This document shows positions 13,717-23,880 of a stretch of DNA of 64,000 nucleotides, piece after piece. The DNA comes from Spongiibacter tropicus DSM 19543 (GTDB lineage Bacteria > Pseudomonadota > Gammaproteobacteria > Pseudomonadales > Spongiibacteraceae): assembly GCF_000420325.1 (NCBI RefSeq), contig NZ_ATUS01000001.1, positions 1,058,463-1,122,462 on the forward strand. The letters run 5' to 3'. The notes under the pieces are model-generated. The model was not told where the DNA came from, did not search any database, and was given only the letters and a program-made list of their open reading frames with translations. A program made the translations under genes and the position numbers. Numbering within the stretch: the first letter of the stretch is position 1; each line of letters begins with the position of its first letter.

Positions 13717-13755
13717 TTTTACTTATTGGCAGCGCTAGCACTAGGGAGTTCAACA

Positions 13756-14412
13756 GTGTCCCCTTTGTTTAATCTTCTCCTCACCGGCGGCCCGGTCGTC
13801 TGGATACTCGGCGTGTTTTCCATCGTCAGCCTCGCCGTCGTCCTGCTCAAGATCTGGCAGTTCTGGGGGCAACTGAAGCTCTCCGATCGCAGCGCAGAAG
13901 ACGCCGTACATCGCCTCCAAGAACACCATGTAAACGAGGCTCTGCTGCTGGTCAAAGGCGCTAAGAACCCGCGTTCCAGTGCGATTCGCGACACGCTGGA
14001 AACATTGAACATTACCGGGCTCAGCGAAGCGCAACAGCGCGAAGAAGCCTTCCGGCGCGCCCGTGGCCGGGTACTTGAGCTGGGCAGCCAACTCCGCATT
14101 CTGGAAGTGATTGCCACGCTGGCCCCGCTGCTCGGTCTGCTGGGCACCGTGCTCGGCATGATTGAGGCATTCAAAGCAATGGAAGCCGCTGGCGAACAGG
14201 TTGATCCGGCGGTTCTGTCTGGCGGTATCTGGCAGGCGCTGCTGACCACCGCTGTCGGTCTGGCGGTCGCCATCCCGGTATCCCTGGCGCATAGCTGGCT
14301 GGAGCGCCGAGTCGAAAACGAAAGCGCCGGTATTCAGGACGCGGTAGAACGCGTGCTGACCCTGGCACCGTCACTGCCCAAAGCACAGGCGAAGAAGCAA
14401 GACGCAAAATGA
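13756..14412 (+). CDS. exbB: TonB-system proton channel ExbB (MotA/TolQ/ExbB family)
   Basis: This inner-membrane protein of 218 residues forms the pentameric channel that couples proton flow to TonB. The GTG at 13756 is chosen because AGGGAG lies seven bases upstream; a TTG at 13726 is in frame but unsupported. TM1 is near residues 10-32. The family signature falls in the TM2-TM3 region (LAPLLGLLGTVLGMIEAF and WQALLTTAVGLAVAIPVSL). It is first in a four-gene exbB-exbD-exbD-tonB operon and overlaps the next gene by ATGA. The preceding Fur-like site suggests induction by iron limitation. Confidence 0.9.
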   Translation: MSPLFNLLLTGGPVVWILGVFSIVSLAVVLLKIWQFWGQLKLSDRSAEDAVHRLQEHHVNEALLLVKGAKNPRSSAIRDTLETLNITGLSEAQQREEAFRRARGRVLELGSQLRILEVIATLAPLLGLLGTVLGMIEAFKAMEAAGEQVDPAVLSGGIWQALLTTAVGLAVAIPVSLAHSWLERRVENESAGIQDAVERVLTLAPSLPKAQAKKQDAK

Positions 14413-14813
14413 ACGCCCTGCTGCCGCCGCGCCCGCGCAAAGCCATCAGCCTGACGGCGCTGATTGACGTGGTATTTATCCTGCTGATGTTTTTCATGCT
14501 GACCAGCAGTTTCACAAAGTGGAACAGCCAGCAGATTAAGACCAGCGTCGGCGGCGACAGCGTTGCCGCTACACAGGATAAGGACATGCAGTTTTTACTG
14601 CTGATGCGCGACGGACAAGCTGCCGTCTTCAAGGGAAGCGAGCGCAGCGGTGCCGAGCCGCTGGATCAGGCATTGCTGCGACTGGATGCCAAGGCGCTGG
14701 TCACACTGGTTCCCGATGCCGAGCTGACCGTCCAGCAAATCCTCGACAGTATCGCCACGCTGCGCCATGCGGAGATTACTCAGATCTCGCTCGGCCAGAG
14801 CAGCCAGTTATAA
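14409..14813 (+). CDS. exbD: ExbD/TolR biopolymer transporter, first copy (Asp-containing)
   Basis: A 134-residue protein with one N-terminal transmembrane helix (residues about 14-33, LTALIDVVFILLMFFML) and a periplasmic domain. Asp20 in the helix is at the position of the essential proton-carrying aspartate of E. coli ExbD (Asp25). Translation is coupled to exbB by a 4-base overlap. It is followed 11 bases later by a second exbD gene. Confidence 0.9.
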   Translation: MNALLPPRPRKAISLTALIDVVFILLMFFMLTSSFTKWNSQQIKTSVGGDSVAATQDKDMQFLLLMRDGQAAVFKGSERSGAEPLDQALLRLDAKALVTLVPDAELTVQQILDSIATLRHAEITQISLGQSSQL

Positions 14814-14824
14814 GTTTTACGCCG

Positions 14825-15235
14825 ATGAATTCACTCCTCCACAGCAAACTGCGCCGCGGCAGCAGCGACGACAATATGATCCCGCTGATCAATATTGTTT
14901 TCCTGCTGCTGATTTTCTTCATGGTCGCAGGACAGATGCGCGCCGGGCTGGTCGGCGACATCACCCTGCCCGACGCCAATCTGGAGACACCGACGCCGCC
15001 CAAGGCCATCGCCATTCAGATTGATCGCAGCGGCCAGACCTATCTGTTCGGAACCCCCACCAGCATTGAAGATATCCAGCAGCAGCTCCAGGCACTGCCC
15101 GCGGAGCAGCCGCTGAATATTGCCCTGCAGGCCGACCGAGAACTGAAAGCCGCGCAACTGGACACCCTGCTGGCGGCACTGCGCGGCCTGAGCAACGCCA
15201 CCACCAGTCTCTACACCAAGAAAGGGGCGAACTGA
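14825..15235 (+). CDS. ExbD/TolR-like protein, second copy with Asp-to-Asn change
   Basis: A 136-residue protein with the same architecture as the preceding ExbD: short cytoplasmic tail, one helix (MIPLINIVFLLLIFFMV, residues 18-34) and a periplasmic domain. The residue aligned with the proton-carrying aspartate is Asn23 (codon AAT), while the flanking PLI-xVFLLLIFFM motif is intact. Since ExbD works as a dimer inside the ExbB pentamer, this copy may pair with ExbD1 in an asymmetric motor, or act as a structural or regulatory subunit (inference). It lies 4 bases before tonB. Confidence 0.88.
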   Translation: MNSLLHSKLRRGSSDDNMIPLINIVFLLLIFFMVAGQMRAGLVGDITLPDANLETPTPPKAIAIQIDRSGQTYLFGTPTSIEDIQQQLQALPAEQPLNIALQADRELKAAQLDTLLAALRGLSNATTSLYTKKGAN

Positions 15236-15239
15236 GCTC

Positions 15240-16076
15240 ATGCCCCGTATCTCCTGGCCCATTGCGATTGCGGTATCGCTGTTAATCCACGGCGGTCTCG
15301 CGATTGGATACTGGCAATCGCGCCCCGCGCCACATCAGGGCGGCGCTATTGGTGAGGGCGAGTACGGATTTGAGATCGGCCTGGGGATGGCCGGTTCCTA
15401 CACGGATGCCGTTGCTAGACAGAAAGCCAAACAACGCCAGCAGGAAGCGGAAGCCGAGAAACAACGGGAGCGTCAACAGCGGGAAGCAAAAGCCAAACAA
15501 GAGGCAAGAAAACCCAAGCCGGAGCCGAAACCCAAACCTAAGCCCAAACCCAAAGCGCCTGCGCCCGTCGTCGCTAAAACCGCTGAGCCCAGCCCGGCGG
15601 AGGCGGACTATCAACACAGCGAGACGCCGCCGGCAGCAGAGTCGCCGTCACCCGCGCCCGCCGCTGAGCCCCCCAAGCAAAACACCGTTGCCAGCGCCGC
15701 GCCCAATGACACCCAGTCACAGGCCTCCCGCAAAGCCACCGGGTCGGGCAGCCAGCAAAAACTCGGCGGCCGCCCCGGCGCGGCCCGCGATTATTTCAGC
15801 ACGCTGATGGCCTGGCTTAACCACCACAAGCGCTACCCGAAAATCGCCAAGAAAAACAAAGAACAGGGCATCGTGAAACTCAAGTTCACGATCGCCAAAG
15901 ACGGCAGCATTTCCAACGCCAGCATTCATACCGGTTCCGGCCACCGCCGTCTGGATGAGGCGGCGTTAAAAGTGCTTCAGGATGCCGACCCGGTTCCCGG
16001 TATTCCGGATGATCTTGGCCGTGACACCCTGACGCTCGTGGTCCCCGTCGAGTATTCGCTGCTGTCTCGATATTGA
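15240..16076 (+). CDS. tonB: TonB energy transducer
   Basis: This 278-residue protein spans the periplasm and energises outer-membrane receptors. One N-terminal helix (PIAIAVSLLIHGGLAIGYW) carries the membrane histidine expected in TonB. A Gln/Glu/Lys-rich helical stretch (residues about 60-90) is followed by a Lys-Pro repeat region and a Pro/Ala/Ser linker. The C-terminal TonB domain (about 185-278) has YFSTLMAWLNHHKRYP and the VKLKFTIAKDGSI strand. It is last in the exbB-exbD-exbD-tonB operon. Likely clients include the three TonB-dependent receptors at 20349, 47270 and 51776. Confidence 0.9.
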   Translation: MPRISWPIAIAVSLLIHGGLAIGYWQSRPAPHQGGAIGEGEYGFEIGLGMAGSYTDAVARQKAKQRQQEAEAEKQRERQQREAKAKQEARKPKPEPKPKPKPKPKAPAPVVAKTAEPSPAEADYQHSETPPAAESPSPAPAAEPPKQNTVASAAPNDTQSQASRKATGSGSQQKLGGRPGAARDYFSTLMAWLNHHKRYPKIAKKNKEQGIVKLKFTIAKDGSISNASIHTGSGHRRLDEAALKVLQDADPVPGIPDDLGRDTLTLVVPVEYSLLSRY

Positions 16077-16090
16077 TCCGGCGGCGCCCG

Positions 16091-16873
16091 CTATAGCAGA
16101 CCGGGAATCAGCGCCCGGCGCTTCGCCGGGTATGCGTCAAAGGTCTCGTGATACCAGCGATGATTGCTCAGTGCGCGCGGCAGCAAATTCGCCACGGTCC
16201 ACAAGACAAAGACCGCCCCCGCCAATGACCAACTGGCAATCGCCCAGCCTGTCCAGATCAGAATTTCACCGAAGTAGTTGGGGCAGGAGATATAGTTGTA
16301 CAACCAACCTCGGGGAATCTTGTAGCCACTCTCCCCCGGCTTACGCAGCGCCGCCAGCATGGCATCAGCGCGACGATTGACCCAGAAACCCAGCGCAAAG
16401 ATCAGTACACCCAACCACAGGCGGGGATCGACCAGCCACTGGCCATAATCTGCGCCTAATTCAGACCACGACAAGATGGCCGCATTGAGGAAGGCGATAC
16501 CCAGATTGGTCAGCACCGCCAAGGCCGGAATCAGCAGTGGCGTCTTATCGTCCGGTTTCAGTTTGCGCTTGAAGGGGTAAATAAAACTGCGATGAAAATA
16601 ATGAAGCTGCCACAGCGCAAACAGCAGCAGCGGCGCAGGTGTCAGCGCGTGTTCGCCCATAAAGAAAATCACCGCGAAGCCGATGGATGACGGCGCTTCC
16701 ATCATCACCCACGACCAGCGCGTGGGAATCCCCGGCCCCCACCACCAGGCGAGGTTACCGTCGTTGTGGCGACCGTAGGCGGCCTTCACGATCCACTGCA
16801 GCACCACAAATACCAGTACCGACATGATCGCGTAGGCCAACAGCAAATCGTTATAAAACGCGGCGATGGTCAT
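16091..16873 (-). CDS. Steroid 5-alpha-reductase-family (SRD5A-like) membrane oxidoreductase
   Basis: A 260-residue multi-pass membrane protein, close to the 254 residues of human SRD5A2. The match to recalled SRD5A sequence is specific: YGRH near residue 33, MMEAPSS with Glu59 at the place of catalytic Glu57, LHYFHRSFIYPF with Tyr92 at the place of catalytic Tyr91, LRKPGESGYKIPRGWLYNY, CPNYFGEILIWTGWAIASWS, and the C-terminal WYHETFDAYPAKRRALIP. The family reduces the delta-4 double bond of 3-oxo steroids or similar enones with NADPH. The start is the ATG at 16873, which overlaps the stop of the SDR gene as ATGA and has AGGGA upstream. The bacterial substrate is unknown. Confidence 0.8.
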   Translation of the reverse strand: MTIAAFYNDLLLAYAIMSVLVFVVLQWIVKAAYGRHNDGNLAWWWGPGIPTRWSWVMMEAPSSIGFAVIFFMGEHALTPAPLLLFALWQLHYFHRSFIYPFKRKLKPDDKTPLLIPALAVLTNLGIAFLNAAILSWSELGADYGQWLVDPRLWLGVLIFALGFWVNRRADAMLAALRKPGESGYKIPRGWLYNYISCPNYFGEILIWTGWAIASWSLAGAVFVLWTVANLLPRALSNHRWYHETFDAYPAKRRALIPGLL

Positions 16874-17805
16874 AAGTAGCGCATCCCTGTGAGTTGTTCT
16901 GACTGCTCCCACAACTGCCCACCGACGGCGCGATCGGTGGCGGCCTTGAGCACCGCAAGCTGTTTAGGAGAACCACGGAACTGGAAGGGACCGGCGGGGC
17001 CGATATATTCGCCGCCACGCAGGGTATCGACGGTAGCGGCATAGACACTGGGTAAGGCGCCCTGCTCTGCGCTCTGGGCCAGCAACAGATTGCCGAGGCG
17101 AGCGATGTGCTGCCACAGGCGTCGGCTCACACTGGCTTGCCCACTATCGGCAAAGGCCACATTGGTCGACGCATACCCCGGATGTGCCGCCAGACTGATC
17201 ACCGGGCTGCCTGCGGCAGCGAGTCGGCGTTGCAGCTCGGTGGCAAAACAAAGATTGGCAAGCTTGGCACGCCCGTAGGCAGCGACCTTGCTGTAGGGTT
17301 CGCGTTCCCAGTTCAGGTCGTTGAAATTCAGTGTGCCGCGCTTGGCGGCGAGACTGGAAACGGTCACCACCCTCGCCGCAGGCGCGGCCTGCAATGCGGG
17401 CAGCAGTGCACCAGTCAACAGAAAATGGGCAAGGTGATTCACCGCAAACAGCATTTCGTGACCCGCGGCCGTGCGCTGTAAGGGCAGTCCCATAACCCCG
17501 GCGTTATTGATTAACAGGTCCAGCGGCTGTTCCGATTCCAGATAGCTGTCTGCGGCCTGCCGCACGCTGTCCAGCGAGGCCAGGTCCATCGGCAAGACCA
17601 CCAGCGAATCGCGTGAGCCCACGCGGCTCGCCAAACGCTGTACGGCGGCCTCCGCGCGTTCGGCGCTGCGACAACCCAGCCATACCTTGGCGCCACACTG
17701 CGCCAGCATCAGCGCCGACTGGTAGCCGATACCGCTGTTGGCGCCAGTGATCAGCACCCGTTTCCCGGAAAGGTCCGGCAGCGAGGCCGGCATCCATTTG
17801 CCCAT
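16870..17805 (-). CDS. Short-chain dehydrogenase/reductase, retinol-dehydrogenase-like
   Basis: An NAD(P)-dependent SDR of 311 residues from the ATG at 17805 (AAGG nine bases upstream). The nucleotide motif is TGANSGIG, then NNAG, a catalytic serine region VVTVSSLAA and the YxxxK motif YGRAK. The long form with EPYSKVAAYGRAKLANLCF resembles RDH/WW-domain oxidoreductase or protochlorophyllide-reductase-like SDRs acting on lipophilic alcohols and ketones. It is translationally coupled to the 5-alpha-reductase-like gene, which implies that the two act on the same substrate (inference). It is divergent from the DTW gene, with 92 bases between starts. Confidence 0.85.
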   Translation of the reverse strand: MGKWMPASLPDLSGKRVLITGANSGIGYQSALMLAQCGAKVWLGCRSAERAEAAVQRLASRVGSRDSLVVLPMDLASLDSVRQAADSYLESEQPLDLLINNAGVMGLPLQRTAAGHEMLFAVNHLAHFLLTGALLPALQAAPAARVVTVSSLAAKRGTLNFNDLNWEREPYSKVAAYGRAKLANLCFATELQRRLAAAGSPVISLAAHPGYASTNVAFADSGQASVSRRLWQHIARLGNLLLAQSAEQGALPSVYAATVDTLRGGEYIGPAGPFQFRGSPKQLAVLKAATDRAVGGQLWEQSEQLTGMRYL

Positions 17806-17897
17806 ATTCATTATCCTTATGTGTCCGGCAATTCGCTGGCTGGAGCGAGTCCGGGGACGACTGATATAGTAGTCCAAAATTCGCTACAGGCTCCGCT

Positions 17898-18497
17898 GTG
17901 ACTTCTCGCGCACTCTGCCAGGGTTGTGATCGCCCACTGAGCACCTGCCTCTGTCAGGCTATGGTTCAACGCCACAGCCGCTATCGCCTGACCCTTCTTC
18001 AGCACCCCAAAGAAGCTCGCCACGCTCTGTCGTCGGCGCCGCTGCTGGCACGCGCTATTCCCGGCAGCCGCCTGATCGTCGGCGAGCACTTCGAGCCCGA
18101 ATCACTGCTCGGCCACGACTGGCAACAGCATAGCCTGCTGCTGTATCCCGGCGAACCCACCATTAGTACGAACGAGGCCAATGCCGCTGACATCACACAG
18201 CTGATTATTCTCGACGGCACCTGGCGGAAAACTGCCAAGCTGCTGCACCTCAACCCCTGGCTCAATGCGCTGCCGCGACTGGCACTGAACGTAGACCAGC
18301 CCAGCCGCTATCGCATTCGCAAATCGCCCCGCGCCGATGGCCTGTCGACCATCGAAGCTGCCGCACAGGCACTGAATGCCTTGCACGGCAACCGCGACTA
18401 CGACGCGATTCTCGGTGCCTTCGAGTTGATGATCGACCAGCAAATTCGCGCTATGGGTGAAGACACTTACCGGCGCAATTACTCGGACAAAAGCTGA
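17898..18497 (+). CDS. DTW-domain tRNA-uridine aminocarboxypropyltransferase-like protein (TapT/YfiP family)
   Basis: A 199-residue protein starting at GTG. The N terminus has four cysteines in CxxC-x6-CxC spacing (Cys7, 10, 17, 19), probably zinc-binding. The DTW-family core follows: LDGTWRKTAKLL, then LALNVDQPSRYRIRKSP and GLSTIEAAAQAL. Characterised members transfer the aminocarboxypropyl group of S-adenosylmethionine to uridine at tRNA position 47 (acp3U). The central motif reads DGTW rather than strict DTW. Its 3' end overlaps the convergent TetR gene by 19 bases. It looks like a housekeeping gene within an accessory block. Confidence 0.85.
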   Translation: MTSRALCQGCDRPLSTCLCQAMVQRHSRYRLTLLQHPKEARHALSSAPLLARAIPGSRLIVGEHFEPESLLGHDWQQHSLLLYPGEPTISTNEANAADITQLIILDGTWRKTAKLLHLNPWLNALPRLALNVDQPSRYRIRKSPRADGLSTIEAAAQALNALHGNRDYDAILGAFELMIDQQIRAMGEDTYRRNYSDKS

Positions 18498-19105
18498 ACC
18501 TGATCCAGCCCCAACATCGCCAGCAAGCGTGTCATCAGACTGCGGGCGTCCAGCGTGGGATCAGCAGCCAGTGTCAGCGCGGCCTCGGCCAGCGCCGAAA
18601 TGACCATGCGGATCAACAGCTCCGATTCAGCATCGCTAAACTGCCCGGCAAGATGGGCCTCGACGGGCGCCTTCGCACTCCCCAGTAAATACTTTACCTC
18701 CCGAAATACGGAGGTCTCGGGCCAGCGTTCGCGCCCGAGCACGTGGGTGGCATCCATCAGCACCACACGACTGAAGCCCGGCTCCTGCATCACATCCAGA
18801 AATAGCTCCCACATGTCCGGCAGCACCCAGGAGCCGCGAGAACGCATGGCGGCCATGCGGCTGGCGAGGCGATCTTCGTAATACTCGGTCACCGCCGTGA
18901 AGAGCTGCAGCTTGTTGCCGAAGTAGTGGTAGATCGGCGTCACCGTAATCCCCGCATCCTCGGCGATATCCGCCAGCGATGTTTCCGCAAAGCCGCACTG
19001 ACCAAAGCGCTCGGCCGCACAGCGCAGGACTTTTTCTTTGGTCTGCTGCCGCCGCTGCGCCTGCGTCAATCGCGTGGGCGGCGTCTTTTCCTGACTGGCA
19101 CTCAT
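18479..19105 (-). CDS. TetR/AcrR-family transcriptional regulator
   Basis: A 208-residue one-component regulator. The N-terminal helix-turn-helix spans about 20-65 (FGQCGFAETSLADIAEDAGITVTPIYHYFGNKLQLF), the classic TetR pattern; the C-terminal ligand domain is divergent, as usual. The ATG at 19105 has GGGAGG just upstream; an ATG four codons earlier is possible. It is divergent from the extended SDR/TonB-receptor genes and probably represses them through the symmetric site at 19132-19150. The ligand is unknown, perhaps the lipid substrate of this locus. Confidence 0.85.
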   Translation of the reverse strand: MSASQEKTPPTRLTQAQRRQQTKEKVLRCAAERFGQCGFAETSLADIAEDAGITVTPIYHYFGNKLQLFTAVTEYYEDRLASRMAAMRSRGSWVLPDMWELFLDVMQEPGFSRVVLMDATHVLGRERWPETSVFREVKYLLGSAKAPVEAHLAGQFSDAESELLIRMVISALAEAALTLAADPTLDARSLMTRLLAMLGLDQVQLLSE

Positions 19106-19131
19106 CCAGCCTCCCATTCATATATTTGACT

Positions 19132-19150
19132 TATATAAGATGATTATATA
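19132..19150. promoter_or_regulatory. Candidate TetR operator: TATATAA-gatga-TTATATA
   Basis: A perfect 7-bp inverted repeat with a 5-base spacer lies 26 bases upstream of the TetR-family start, in the divergent 245-base intergenic region. A second, weaker repeat CGATCA-(9)-TGATCG lies at 19202-19222. Size, symmetry and location suit a TetR dimer site and autoregulation. Confidence 0.5.
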
Positions 19151-19350
19151 TCTTCACCAGAAATTTATGTAAACACACTACACAAAAATAAAAGCACATC
19201 ACGATCAACGCCACCGTGATCGCGACATAGATACAGCGCTCGACATAACACTCGACACAGCAATCACCATAACAACAGGAACAACGCCATTATCATGTCT
19301 GTTAACGCGTTTACTGCGGTCTGCCCCAAGCAGCAAGGGTCCGACCTGCG

Positions 19351-20298
19351 ATGAAAGTACTGCTTACCGGCGCCTTCGGCAATCTGGGGCTGCTCTGCCT
19401 TGAGCGCTTGCTGGCCGACGGCCATGAGCTGCGCTGCACCGATCTTGATGGCGAGGAGCAGCGAAAACAGGCCGCCCGGTTTAGCGGGCAGTGCGAGATC
19501 GTCTTTGGCAATATCTGCGAGCCGCAATGCCTGCCCGGACTGGTTGAGGGGGTGGAGGCAATTGTCCATCTGGCCTCGCTGCTGCCCCCAAATACCGACA
19601 AGCAACCCGCACTGGCCGAAGCCGTCAACGTTGATGCAGCGAAGGCGCTGATCGACTGCGCGGCCCGACAGACTGCCCCACCACTGTTTATTTTTCCGTC
19701 ATCACTCACCGTGTTCGGCCCGTCCCAACGGCACAATCCCACGCGCAGCAGTGACGACCCGGTGGAAGCCTCAGACCACTACACCCGGCACAAACTGCTG
19801 GTGGAAGACTACCTGCAACGCAGCGCGCTTCCCTGGATCATTATGCGCGTGGGCGTGTCGGTCGATGCCCGCACCACGAAAACTGAGCGCCAGGTGCTGC
19901 GCCAACTGCTGGGCGTACACCCCGACACGCCCATGGAATACATCCATCCCAAAGACGTCGCCCGCGCTATTTCCAATGCGCTTAACACGCCGGAAGCCCG
20001 GCACAAGATCCTGCTGTTGGGCGGCGGCGAGAGCTGCCAGATTACTCATCACGCGTTTATGAATGCCGCGTTTACCGCATTGGGTCTGGCGCAGAAGCCC
20101 GGTATTCACGGCGAAAACAATTACTACACCCACTGGATGGACACGCGCGAAGCGCAGGCGCTGCTGGACTTTCAGCAACACAGTTTCGCCGATTATCAAC
20201 AGGAACTCCGGGACAAATTTACCCCTATCCGCCGCTGGACAAGTCCGGTCAGACCGCTGCTCAGGCCGCTGCTGCCCGCGCTGCTCCGGCGGCTCTAA
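19351..20298 (+). CDS. Extended SDR: NAD-dependent epimerase/dehydratase family
   Basis: A 315-residue Rossmann protein beginning MKVLLTGAFGNLG (GxxGxxG). Other family marks are VHLAS, FPSSLTVFG (catalytic Ser region), YTRHK (YxxxK) and RVGVSVDART. The C-terminal half (YIHPKDVARAISNAL) matches the substrate domain of UDP-sugar epimerases and 3-beta-hydroxysteroid-dehydrogenase-like proteins. The C terminus is Arg/Leu/Pro-rich. It precedes the TonB-dependent receptor by about 50 bases and is divergent from the TetR gene, so it probably belongs to that regulon. Exact reaction unassigned. Confidence 0.8.
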   Translation: MKVLLTGAFGNLGLLCLERLLADGHELRCTDLDGEEQRKQAARFSGQCEIVFGNICEPQCLPGLVEGVEAIVHLASLLPPNTDKQPALAEAVNVDAAKALIDCAARQTAPPLFIFPSSLTVFGPSQRHNPTRSSDDPVEASDHYTRHKLLVEDYLQRSALPWIIMRVGVSVDARTTKTERQVLRQLLGVHPDTPMEYIHPKDVARAISNALNTPEARHKILLLGGGESCQITHHAFMNAAFTALGLAQKPGIHGENNYYTHWMDTREAQALLDFQQHSFADYQQELRDKFTPIRRWTSPVRPLLRPLLPALLRRL

Positions 20299-20348
20299 CC
20301 ACGCCATTCCACAACGCAATGCATACTGATAATTCTAAAGGGACGACC

Positions 20349-22946
20349 ATGCATCACTACAAACGCTACCCGCTGCCACTCGCTGTGGCATGCATGACCA
20401 TTGGCGCTACCCCCCTGGCACTGGACGCCGCCGAGCAGCGCGCCAGCGGCCTGATCGAGGAGGTCGTCGTCACCGCAAGGAAACGCGCGGAAAGTATTCA
20501 GGAAACGCCGGTTGCAGTGACCGCCATCACCGGCGACAGCCTGCGCGAGCAGGGCATTCTCGCGGCGGAAGAGCTGAGTAAGTCGGTGCCGAGCCTGCAG
20601 ATCAACAACAGTACCTCTCCGCAGATCTTTATTCGCGGCATCGGCCAGCGCGCACCCTTCGCCCGCTTTGATCCCTCCGTCAGCGTGTATCTGGACGGCA
20701 TTTTTATTCCCCGCCCCGACGGGCAGTTGCTCGACACGATTGACGTCGACAGCGTGCAGGTCTTGCGCGGCCCACAGGGCACGCTGTTCGGCAAGAACAA
20801 TACCGGCGGTGCACTGGTGTTTACGCTCACCAAACCGGGCGAGGAATTTGGCGGCTATATTGATGCCGGCCTGGGCAACTACAACGAGCAGCGACTGCAG
20901 GCGGCCGTCGACATGCCGATCAACGACGAGCTGTTTACCCGGGTATCGGTCAACACCCGCCGTCGAGACGGCTTTCTGAAAGACGCGACCGGACGCGAGA
21001 ACCAGTCCATTGATCGCCTGTCAGCGATCTTTCAAAGTCGCTGGCTGGCCAGTGACGAGCTGACGGTCGATGCCTTTGCCTTTGTCGGCCGCACCCGCGA
21101 GAACTTCCCCTCCTATCACTGCCGCATCAATAACGAAGACGCGTTGTTCGTGAATGGACTGGGCATTCTCTGGCCGGGCGATACCGATCCGAATAACCCC
21201 TCGGCCTACGTCGACAACTGCAATGCCAATGCCCGCGACGCGCAGCCGGACCTGCACACCAATCAGGGGGATAGCCAGCGACAGCGCAAAGACAACGACG
21301 AGCTGATGCTGGGACTGACCTTTGATTATCAGTTCAGCGACAACCACAGCATGAAGGCCATTTTGGGCTATCGCGATGCGACCAAGATGAACCCGCAGAC
21401 GACGGCTGACGAAGGCGGCCCCGCCGAGTACTTGCGCGCCGACCTGCTGGGCGACAGCATTCAGGAGTCGCTGACACTGGAACTGCAGTTTAACGGCGTG
21501 CTGTTCGACAGCGTCGACTATGCTGCCGGCATTTTCTATCAGGACGAGTACAAATCGGAGCGTTTCAATACCGCCAACCCACTGGTGGGCTCGGAGCCGA
21601 TTAACTTCCTCGGCCTCGCTGCCGGGCAGGCGGGCGTTGATATTGCCGCCCTGACGGATTTACTGGAAACGGTCACCGGACTCATCCCCGGCGGCACCGT
21701 GCCGCTGGTTGCCGCCGCCCTGCCACTGGCAACCGTGCAGGATTTTGAAATCGACGGCCAGACCTTCGCCGCCTTCACCCAGGCAACCTGGCATGTCACC
21801 GATCACTTTGAGCTGACACTGGGCGGACGCTACACCGAGGAAACCCGCGACTCCTACCTGGTGACCCGCAGCGCCGACCTGGAGGAGGTCACGTCGATCG
21901 TCAGTGGCGCCGATCCGCGCTTTATTCCGCTGCTGCCGTCAATGGGCGCCATGGCGTTTCTCGGTCGCTGGTCGCAAGACCCGCTCACCATTGCCAACAA
22001 TATACTGCGCGAGCAATTTCCCGGCGATATTCGTGCGCCGCTGGGCGATGCCAAGATCGACACCCGCGAAGACACCTTCCGCCAGTTCACCCCGATGGCC
22101 TCTGCCGCGTATATCTTCCCGGAGGAAATGCTGGATGGCAGCCTGATCAATTCCGCCATGGTCTACGCCACCTGGAGCAATGGCTTCAAATCGGGCTTTC
22201 AGGAACCGTTTGGCCTCGATGGGCTGAGCGTGGTGGAGCCGGAAGAACTGGAAAACCGCGAAATCGGCATCAAGATCGACGCTCTGGAACGCTCGCTGCG
22301 AGTCAATCTGGCGGCCTATTCCATGACCTTCAAAAACATGCACCTGATCACCGTCAACGTCGATACCAACAACACGCTGGTAGTGGGCTCCCAGAATGCC
22401 GGGGAATCGGTGATTGAAGGGGCTGAGCTGGAAGTCATGTGGTTCCCGAGCATGAACACCATGATCAACCTCACCTACAGCAACAACAACTATCGCTATG
22501 AAGAGTTCATGGACAACGACCTCAAGTCGCTGGCATTGCGCGGTGAGTATGTACCGATAGACCGCTCTGACGAAGAGTTTGCCGTCTCTCCCGAAGAGAC
22601 CGCGTCGCTGGGTATTCAATACACCTTGAACACCGACGTCGGCCGCTTCGTGCCGCGCCTGGACGCCAGCTATAAAAGCGATGTGTATCTCGGGCTGGAT
22701 CGCGGTGCCTGGGAAGCCGCCAAACGCAAAGAGGCACTGTCTTACGCCGATGCCTACGTACTGCTCGACGCTCGCGTGAGCTGGAGCAACCCCGAGGACG
22801 ACCTGAGTATTGCCGCCTACGTCAAAAACCTGACCGACGAACGCTATGAGATCGGCGCGGTGTCAGCCGGGGACAGCATCGGCACCTTCACCAGCGTATT
22901 GGGCGAGCCGCGCATGTATGGCGTGGAAGTACGCAAAACCTTTTAA
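20349..22946 (+). CDS. TonB-dependent outer-membrane receptor
   Basis: An 865-residue receptor from the ATG at 20349 (AAAGGGA upstream). It has a signal peptide, a TonB-box-like start of the mature chain (IEEVVVTARKR), a plug domain (about 45-165, with FIRGIGQRAPFARFDPSVSV and VLRGPQGTLFGKNNTGGAL) and a 22-strand barrel ending in the aromatic signature VEVRKTF. The plug type is that of receptors common in marine and sphingomonad-type degraders, which take up hydrophobic or complex organic compounds rather than siderophores only. No Fur-like site was seen upstream, and the neighbours are SDRs, so a lipophilic substrate is inferred. An intrinsic terminator follows. Confidence 0.9.
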   Translation: MHHYKRYPLPLAVACMTIGATPLALDAAEQRASGLIEEVVVTARKRAESIQETPVAVTAITGDSLREQGILAAEELSKSVPSLQINNSTSPQIFIRGIGQRAPFARFDPSVSVYLDGIFIPRPDGQLLDTIDVDSVQVLRGPQGTLFGKNNTGGALVFTLTKPGEEFGGYIDAGLGNYNEQRLQAAVDMPINDELFTRVSVNTRRRDGFLKDATGRENQSIDRLSAIFQSRWLASDELTVDAFAFVGRTRENFPSYHCRINNEDALFVNGLGILWPGDTDPNNPSAYVDNCNANARDAQPDLHTNQGDSQRQRKDNDELMLGLTFDYQFSDNHSMKAILGYRDATKMNPQTTADEGGPAEYLRADLLGDSIQESLTLELQFNGVLFDSVDYAAGIFYQDEYKSERFNTANPLVGSEPINFLGLAAGQAGVDIAALTDLLETVTGLIPGGTVPLVAAALPLATVQDFEIDGQTFAAFTQATWHVTDHFELTLGGRYTEETRDSYLVTRSADLEEVTSIVSGADPRFIPLLPSMGAMAFLGRWSQDPLTIANNILREQFPGDIRAPLGDAKIDTREDTFRQFTPMASAAYIFPEEMLDGSLINSAMVYATWSNGFKSGFQEPFGLDGLSVVEPEELENREIGIKIDALERSLRVNLAAYSMTFKNMHLITVNVDTNNTLVVGSQNAGESVIEGAELEVMWFPSMNTMINLTYSNNNYRYEEFMDNDLKSLALRGEYVPIDRSDEEFAVSPEETASLGIQYTLNTDVGRFVPRLDASYKSDVYLGLDRGAWEAAKRKEALSYADAYVLLDARVSWSNPEDDLSIAAYVKNLTDERYEIGAVSAGDSIGTFTSVLGEPRMYGVEVRKTF

Positions 22947-22976
22947 GCGTTTTTCATAGGTGCTCGAAAGAGCCTT

Positions 22977-23017
22977 GGGCAGACCTCGGATTTCACCCGC
23001 TGAGGCTGCCCTTTTTT
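22977..23017 (+). terminator. Intrinsic terminator after the TonB-dependent receptor
   Basis: GGGCAG-a-CCTC pairs with GAGG-c-CTGCCC across a central loop, followed by a six-T run. It separates the receptor gene from the next SDR. Confidence 0.8.
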
Positions 23018-23037
23018 CTTAGCTGGAAGCCATCACC

Positions 23038-23880
23038 ATGAAACTGGAACCGGGAAAAACCGCGCTGATTACCGGCGCAGCAGGCGGGCTGGGCAGCGCA
23101 CTGGCCAGAGCACTGGCTGCGCGCGGCTGTCATCTGGCGCTGGTCGATATCGATCAGCAGGCATTGGAAACACTGGCGGCGGAGCTTCACAGCCCGACAC
23201 TGCGCGTGAGCTGTCACACCGTGGACCTGCGCAACCGTGCCGCGATTCAGGCACTGGCAGAGGACGTACGCCAGCAGCACTCAGCGCTGCATTTGCTGAT
23301 TAACAATGCCGGGATCACCCTGCAGAAGAGTGTAGAAACACACAGCGAGGCCGACTGGCAGCGTGTCTTTGACCTGAACTTCTGGGGCACGGTGAATAGC
23401 TGCAAGGCGTTTTTGCCAATGCTGAAAACCGCCGGGGGCGCGCATATCGTGAACCTGTCGAGCATGGTGGCCTGCTACGGCATGCCCAGCCAGAGTTCCT
23501 ACAGCAGCAGCAAGGCCGCCGTTCAGGCCTACAGTGAATCGCTGCGCGCCGAGTTGCGCGGCCAGCATATTGGCGTGACTTGCATAAACCCCGGCGCCAT
23601 CAACACCCAGATGATTCAGGCCACACTGCGCGAGTCGGATGATATTGCTCAAGCCGAGGCCAATATGGCACTGGCTCAGCGCTTTGGTATTGCGCCGGCC
23701 AAAGCCGCGCAGAAAATCCTCGCCGCCGTGGAGCGCAATCAGGCGCAGCGTTTTATCGGCGTCGATGCCAGGCTGTATAGCCTGCTGAGCAAACTGTTTC
23801 CCGCTGCAGTGTCATACGCGCTGGCGAAAAGTTATGAGCGCGTGAGCGCTCGCAATGAGGCGCTAACCGACCGCCCTTAG
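23038..23880 (+). CDS. Short-chain dehydrogenase/reductase (classical SDR)
   Basis: A 280-residue SDR with TGAAGGLG (nucleotide loop), NNAGIT, the catalytic serine in VNLSSMVACYG and YSSSK (YxxxK). The C-terminal extension past 250 (LYSLLSKLFPAAVSYALAKSYERV) resembles the hydrophobic tails of membrane-associated SDRs acting on acyl or steroid-like substrates. It lies after the receptor terminator in the same orientation and overlaps the convergent GGDEF gene by 4 bases. The substrate is not evident. Confidence 0.85.
   Translation: MKLEPGKTALITGAAGGLGSALARALAARGCHLALVDIDQQALETLAAELHSPTLRVSCHTVDLRNRAAIQALAEDVRQQHSALHLLINNAGITLQKSVETHSEADWQRVFDLNFWGTVNSCKAFLPMLKTAGGAHIVNLSSMVACYGMPSQSSYSSSKAAVQAYSESLRAELRGQHIGVTCINPGAINTQMIQATLRESDDIAQAEANMALAQRFGIAPAKAAQKILAAVERNQAQRFIGVDARLYSLLSKLFPAAVSYALAKSYERVSARNEALTDRP

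Follow-up and report, generated by a model that had tools for sequence, protein, structure and literature searches.

A steroid 5-alpha-reductase homologue and its overlapping short-chain dehydrogenase partner at a probable steroid-processing locus of Spongiibacter tropicus

A 64,000-nucleotide stretch of Spongiibacter tropicus DSM 19543 (RefSeq assembly GCF_000420325.1, contig NZ_ATUS01000001.1, positions 1,058,463 to 1,122,462), here called the window, encodes a membrane protein homologous to the steroid 5-alpha-reductases (SRD5A), the gene for which overlaps that of an upstream short-chain dehydrogenase/reductase (SDR). The identity of the protein is confirmed, and its function is partly supported. 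From comparison of sequences, the two genes probably form a translationally coupled 5-alpha-reductase module at a locus for steroid processing, in a host that probably degrades steroids, and part of this preferred reading is that the module may be exchangeable with a reductase of the Old Yellow Enzyme (OYE) family. The enzyme family is already known, but its surroundings here are new and open to testing. The pair is arranged as follows.

16870..17811 (stop included), minus strand: RDH-like classical SDR of 313 amino acids, with ATG at 17811 or 17805 and TGA ending at 16870
16870..16873, minus strand: four-base ATGA overlap of the SDR stop and the SRD5A start, read from the sequence
16091..16873, minus strand: SRD5A (PF02544) homologue of 260 amino acids, with Glu59/Tyr92 and Met58, ATG at 16873 and stop ending at 16091

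The junction of the two genes reads TTATGACC, and the overlap of start and stop described in a first-pass annotation of this DNA is indeed seen. The remaining genus members with the pair, genomes G009, G012 and G013, have the same TTATGAC junction. The partner had been called RDH-like, and this description holds: the protein scores 302.7 bits against NCBIfam NF004846/PRK06197, above the cut-off of 268, and has the SDR motifs TGANSGIG at 22, NNAG at 102 and YGRAK at 179. Its start had been placed at 17805, with an alternative ATG upstream at 17811.

The proposal that the membrane protein is of the SRD5A1/2 type is borne out by sequence and by predicted fold. In Pfam, the protein matches PF02544 at 156.3 bits (cut-off 22.6, E=7.4e-46), whereas NCBIfam contains no family matching it up to E=0.001. 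A sequence search against every solved structure gives three matches at E 0.001, namely PbSRD5A (7c83; E=5.6e-65, 223 bits), human SRD5A2 (7bw1; E=8.4e-38) and a TECR-type chain (22of; E=5.6e-10, 42 bits). An AlphaFold model built from a 66-sequence alignment (mean predicted local distance difference test score, pLDDT, of 93.4) is predicted to share the seven-helix fold of 7c83 and 7bw1, superposing on the former over 251 residues (root-mean-square deviation 1.4 A, Z 34.8) and on the latter over 244 residues (2.3 A, Z 28.9), so that the comparison with SRD5A2 suggested by the first-pass annotation gives a close match, and PbSRD5A a closer one. The next structural matches are Delta14-sterol reductase and isoprenylcysteine methyltransferase (ICMT) chains at Z 10-13 (10-12 for ICMT), and the first two rows from Foldseek are likewise 7c83 and 7bw1.

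Glu59 and Tyr92 had been assigned to the catalytic positions, and they align with E54/Y87 of PbSRD5A and with E57/Y91 of human SRD5A2. In a survey of relatives, in which 110 loci gave 106 matches and 105 were aligned after the truncated L026 was dropped (near-duplicates such as L061/L062 included), both residues are invariant (105/105); their loss in orthologues, named beforehand as an argument against the assignment, was found in none. The cofactor site is also kept, as had been read from its segments. Of the 13 residues that hydrogen-bond NADPH in PbSRD5A (PMC7815742 section 8), 12 are identical, and His230 is replaced by Asn237.

A point absent from the first-pass annotation concerns the residue before the catalytic Glu. 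The Q-E-Y motif is termed highly conserved among the enzymes studied (PMC7815742 section 9), and its Gln, Gln56 in SRD5A2 and Gln53 in PbSRD5A, is Met58 in the window protein, which by this residue departs from the Q-E-Y type of SRD5A1/2 and PbSRD5A. The 105 relatives have Met (97), Leu (4), Gln (2) or Phe (2) at this position, counts biased toward Met because 80 of the sequences were found by a pattern scan containing WSWVMMEA; the 25 that came from whole-genome searches have Met (19), Leu (4) or Phe (2). In a quick tree, PbSRD5A falls with the M-type sequences L065 and L013 at weak support (SH-aLRT 82), and the placement of DET2 and human SRD5A2 is unsure. Arabidopsis DET2, a true 5-alpha-reductase, presumably also has Met here and would be 37.5% identical to the window protein.

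The steroid setting is suggested by other genes of the host. Its genome contains seven KshA_C matches over the family cut-off, which is exceeded in 0 of 14 control genomes, with the proviso that a KshA_C protein is not necessarily a steroid 9-alpha-hydroxylase. In addition, there are a KstD-like gene, two HsaA-like genes, an HsaC-like gene and HsaF (TIGR03217, 4-hydroxy-2-oxovalerate aldolase), the last over its cut-off. On the basis of these genes together, the host is probably a steroid degrader of the 9,10-seco type. A second steroid-type locus is present on contig C3 of this genome (L129:3158-14750), with two KshA_C genes, a BaiCD-like flavoenzyme of 717 amino acids and an open reading frame (ORF) of 839 amino acids.

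Across the order, the presence of SRD5A and of KshA_C was compared in 145 related genomes. SRD5A was scored as a match with E below 1e-30 (26 genomes, with 20 weak-match genomes left out), and KshA_C was found in 56 genomes at E 0.001, 54 of those being over the cut-off. KshA_C is present in 23/26 genomes with SRD5A versus 33/119 others (one-sided Fisher p=1e-8), and outside the genus in 19/22 versus 21/105 (p=6e-9); when genomes are collapsed to genera, the sole means by which relatedness was handled, the counts are 16/18 versus 14/66 (p=2e-7). The three SRD5A genomes without KshA_C are G100, G110 and G137. In the flanks fetched, which span 1.5 to about 10 kb and are shorter where a contig ends, a relative of KshA, KstD or HsaA/HsaF lies beside SRD5A in six of the 22 order genomes outside the genus (G084, G142, G046, G030, G071 and G132), a count that leaves aside further SRD5A copies in several genomes, for instance three more in G074. 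In the case of G030, a SnoaL_4 gene, of a class that presumably includes ketosteroid isomerases, is situated between SRD5A and the KstD relative. In G084 and G142, a gene of 139-147 amino acids without a Pfam match at E 1e-5 stands between KshA and SRD5A (L143:9005-9448, L146:7664-8083).

The first-pass annotation had suggested two-step redox processing of a steroid, sterol or terpenoid by the pair. The host genes and the association with KshA_C over the 145 genomes favour a steroid over a terpenoid, whereas the pairing with this particular SDR proved to be only local. Among 18 genomes sampled from the genus, with G000 the window's own, SRD5A is present in four (G000, G009, G012 and G013), and the partner SDR has an orthologue (59-73% identity) in exactly those four, always directly upstream of SRD5A. 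For the other 14 genus members the best SDR match is at most 43%, three having none at E 1e-30, and this SDR does not accompany SRD5A at any of the loci examined outside the genus. Thus, the SDR-SRD5A pair is a local module.

In all four SRD5A genomes the pair adjoins a trio of genes, encoding an extended SDR, a TonB-dependent receptor and a classical SDR (window 19351-23880), that is itself found in 12 of the 18 genus genomes. Order and orientation vary among G000, G009 and G012/G013. In the window, the surroundings of the pair are as follows.

17855..17875, no strand given: imperfect inverted repeat GGAC.ACT n5 AGT.GTCC, a candidate operator just upstream of the SDR start
18479..19117, minus strand: TetR-family regulator, with relatives at the locus in G009 and in eight OYE-type genomes, not in the G012/G013 stretches
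19351..20298, plus strand: extended SDR, trio gene 1 (PF01370, 65 bits; PF01073 3Beta_HSD, 47 bits)
20319..22946, plus strand: TonB-dependent receptor, trio gene 2, matched in other genus members
23038..23880, plus strand: classical SDR by Pfam, trio gene 3, matched in other genus members

Between G000 and G009, identity is 85% for SRD5A, 73% for the partner SDR and 80% for the TonB receptor; between G000 and G012, the respective values are 70%, 60% and 87%. A nucleotide tree of the prkA locus places G000 with G004 (0.98) and G012/G013 with G001 (0.78), with G009 apart. From these identities and the tree, the pair seems to have moved or been lost independently of the trio. Within about 10 kb of the pair, G009 also carries a partial KshA_C ORF (198 amino acids, L134:88-684) and a phage-type integrase (L131:17534-18796).

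The eight trio genomes without SRD5A (G002, G003 with two copies, G004, G005, G007, G010, G016 and G017) all have, at the same locus, an OYE-family gene of about 400 amino acids and a TetR gene. G009 has both OYE and SRD5A there, whereas the loci of G000, G012 and G013 lack OYE, and only an OYE-2 copy is found elsewhere in each genome. An OYE at the locus is hence seen in 1/4 genomes with SRD5A versus 8/8 without (Fisher p=0.018), in a sample of few independent lineages where G012 is close to G013 and G003 to G017. Relocation of the cluster OYE in G000, G012 and G013 was considered and rejected, as their sole copy, OYE-2, falls outside the cluster OYEs, with support of 1.000 for the branch between them; in G004, by contrast, OYE-2 is weakly on the cluster side. 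The OYEs of the sister loci score 143-151 bits against BaiCD, far below the cut-off of 825. In three of the eight OYE-type genomes (G002, G005 and G010), the trio is about 7 kb from KshA-like genes.

Enzymes of the OYE family act on C4-C5 of Delta4-3-ketosteroids with 5-beta outcome, as described for BaiCD, C. innocuum ci2350, 5-beta-Delta4-KSTD1 and CasH (PMC12238238, PMC9645264, PMC8399759). Because of this action, and because OYE fills the locus where SRD5A is lacking, OYE and SRD5A may stand in for one another, with opposite stereochemistry. The OYE enzymes differ from the window reductase in being flavoproteins of another family with 5-beta stereochemistry, a relative of which occupies the locus in the eight sister genomes. 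A similarly named dehydrogenase is also distinct, and we take it to be a flavoprotein that does not belong to PF02544. It acts on the same bond in the opposite, oxidative direction (PMC10637631, PMC8399759).

If the preferred reading of a 5-alpha-reductase module is correct, the TonB-dependent receptor would carry a steroid across the outer membrane, and SDR-type hydroxysteroid dehydrogenases would set the oxidation state of its hydroxyls. The seven-helix SRD5A protein would then deliver a hydride from NADPH to the alpha face of a 3-oxo-Delta4 steroid at C5, while Tyr92 and Glu59 polarise the steroid carbonyl, to yield a 3-oxo-5-alpha product that the partner SDR could reduce or re-oxidise. 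What is observed is the agreement in sequence, fold and key residues, the conservation of gene content and the presence of steroid-pathway-type genes in the genome; we infer the substrate, the stereochemistry at C5, a common substrate for SDR and reductase, and the role of the receptor in uptake.

Beyond the order, a wider survey covered the best 80 of 255 confirmed relatives (L031-L110), mostly from other phyla with few Pseudomonadota; Chloroflexota, Myxococcota, Spirochaetota, Marinimicrobia and Asgard archaea are among the groups with family members. Neighbours were counted at 79 loci with a full-length gene (L094 was dropped), using simple gene calls that may miss some, and with near-duplicate genomes counted apart. 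An extended SDR belonging to one cluster directly adjoins SRD5A in 40 of these 79 loci (for instance, L034:4991-6004 and L044:5017-5997). In 37 of the 40 it is upstream on the same strand, and in 20 of those 37 it overlaps the SRD5A start, 10 times by exactly four bases. Five of the extended SDRs were scanned against curated families: for four, the top scores were to SdmB (sterol C4 demethylation) and HpnA at 200-253 bits, and that of L077 gave HpnA at 92, all below the cut-off; for ten scanned neighbours (nine of the cluster and that of L103), PF01370 was best and PF01073 (3Beta_HSD) was also over its cut-off. Relative to the extended SDR of the window, those of the distant loci are remote (25-34% over part of the length). 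As an SDR stands next to SRD5A both in the window and at distant loci, the pairing is recurrent, with different SDR families.

A more far-reaching proposal, which we offer tentatively and consider possible rather than probable, is that a locus for steroid uptake and processing in this genus carries either an OYE ene-reductase or SRD5A-SDR (one genome having both) through a non-homologous exchange that would switch C5 of the product from 5-beta to 5-alpha, that M-E-Y, and not Q-E-Y, is the ordinary prokaryotic catalytic motif, and that the operons of extended SDR and SRD5A in many phyla parallel the eukaryotic HSD3B-SRD5A pair.

Several observations weigh against a role for the module in steroid processing. 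The KstD-like gene of the host has NF009478 as its best NCBIfam match at 543 bits, under the cut-off of 789; the two HsaA-like genes score 381 and 374 bits, under 450; and the HsaC-like gene scores 236 bits (cut-off 450) versus 241 (cut-off 366) for biphenyl-2,3-diol dioxygenase. The KshA, KstD and Hsa genes that were found all lie elsewhere in the genome, and the window gave none. KshA_C is present in 16 of the 18 genus members, 12 of which lack SRD5A, so SRD5A is dispensable for steroid catabolism. The association with KshA_C is a plain count, in which relatedness is allowed for by collapsing to genera alone. A reduction that uses NADPH is opposite in sense to the 9,10-seco pathway, which is oxidative. 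Furthermore, the fetched flanks of the 80 wider loci yielded no relative of KshA or KstD (L059 and L065 have OYE relatives), and the wider family may therefore serve another role, possibly a non-steroid one at those loci. Lastly, the substitutions Q56A and Q56L abolish activity of human SRD5A2 (PMC7815742 section 9), which, in a motif called highly conserved, weakens the case for activity of the Met58 protein on classical steroids.

These observations bear on three other explanations. It is unlikely, in our estimation, that the substrate of the pair is an isoprenoid enone or allylic compound other than a steroid, of the polyprenol/dolichol or terpenoid type, reduced in the manner of eukaryotic SRD5A3. 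That enzyme acts on polyprenols (PMC7591894), and the spread of the family over many phyla, with 80 loci devoid of KshA/KstD relatives in their flanks, would suit such a role; however, SRD5A strongly tracks KshA_C in the order of the host, relatives of KshA, KstD or Hsa genes do flank it in the six order genomes named above, and the top structural matches are two steroid enzymes. Met58, taken with the inactive human Q56A/L variants, could instead mean that ordinary 3-oxo-Delta4 steroids are not turned over by the enzyme, or that it uses another enone of steroid breakdown, such as a bile-acid or ring-opened intermediate. Against this, Met is the commonest residue among the relatives, the assayed PbSRD5A falls, if weakly, with M-type sequences in the quick tree, and DET2 presumably has Met as well; we give this explanation a rather low probability. 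Least probable by far is that the SRD5A name is wrong and that the protein is of the DUF1295, TECR-like enoyl-CoA reductase or isoprenylcysteine methyltransferase type. The match to PF06966/DUF1295 (26.7 bits, E=4.6e-6) does exceed its own cut-off of 20.4, that to PEMT (PF04191) reaches 22.6 bits, under its cut-off of 25, and the TECR-type chain 22of is matched. However, in the comparison of PF02544 with PF06966 that the first-pass annotation had called for, PF02544 is clearly the best family and the methyltransferase families score lower, PbSRD5A outscores the TECR-type chain by 223 to 42 bits, and Z is 34.8 versus 10-12 for ICMT; Pfam, structure-sequence and fold scores all disfavour these identities.

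The preferred reading of a steroid 5-alpha-reductase module can also be set against known systems. Bacterial SRD5A activity is already established, as PbSRD5A was crystallised and assayed in 2021; it reduced progesterone, acted to a limited extent on androstenedione and showed no detectable activity toward testosterone (PMC7815742). The window protein resembles it (7c83; Han et al. 2021, PMC7815742) in identity (44-46%), fold, the Glu/Tyr pair and the 12/13 NADPH residues, but differs in having Met58 for Gln53 and Asn237 for His230. Human SRD5A2 (7bw1) shares 32-34% identity, the fold (Z 28.9) and the equivalents of Glu57/Tyr91, but has Gln56 in place of Met58, and the window enzyme is bacterial and SDR-coupled. 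DET2, treated as a plant progesterone/testosterone 5-alpha-reductase (PMC12419790 section 8), belongs to the same family, but its role in the Arabidopsis brassinosteroid pathway is biosynthetic. In gut Bacteroidetes, a membrane-associated 5-alpha-reductase works in sequence with a 3-beta-hydroxysteroid dehydrogenase to give iso-allo bile acids (PMC9645264, PMC12292970). The likeness, drawn from description and not from sequence, is that of a reductase working with a hydroxysteroid dehydrogenase; the difference is that the gut system transforms bile acids, whereas in the window genome genes of the 9,10-seco type are present and the pair lies next to a TonB receptor. A limited search of the open-access literature found nothing on SRD5A in such steroid loci, on an exchange with OYE or on the Met variant.

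Control elements near the pair give little indication of common regulation. A pattern made from the inverted repeat at 17855-17875 has one exact site in the window and three with three mismatches, where 1.76 matches are expected by chance, and no site within three mismatches in L131 or L132; with no good second copy, shared control of pair and trio is not supported. Scans of 16000-19400 gave two promoters versus 1.1 in shuffles and four terminators versus 3.0, both about chance, and scans of the window for Rfam families (gathering threshold) and tRNAs were empty. Genes for MotA/TolQ/ExbB, ExbD and TonB_C proteins (window 13726-16076) directly adjoin the locus, whereas the stretches fetched from G009, G012 and G013 contain no match to them. 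TonB-dependent receptor matches number 79 in the host's 3.9-Mb genome and range from 41 to 92 among the 18 genomes of the genus, a large repertoire, although pieces of a single receptor may be counted separately.

To date, a bacterial SRD5A homologue has served as a structural model of a drug target, and the literature found says little on its bacterial role. Here, the family is tied in one bacterial order to steroid-breakdown genes, with a defined partner enzyme and receptor. The Met-for-Gln replacement limits the use of the published Q-E-Y motif for recognising such enzymes. In this probable steroid degrader, a homologue of the enzyme by which dihydrotestosterone is made in humans shares a small operon with a dehydrogenase, next to a receptor locus at which, in most trio-bearing sister species, an unrelated reductase of double bonds takes its place. 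The presence of OYE or SRD5A at one locus represents a natural experiment, in which the question of 5-alpha versus 5-beta reduction is directly testable.
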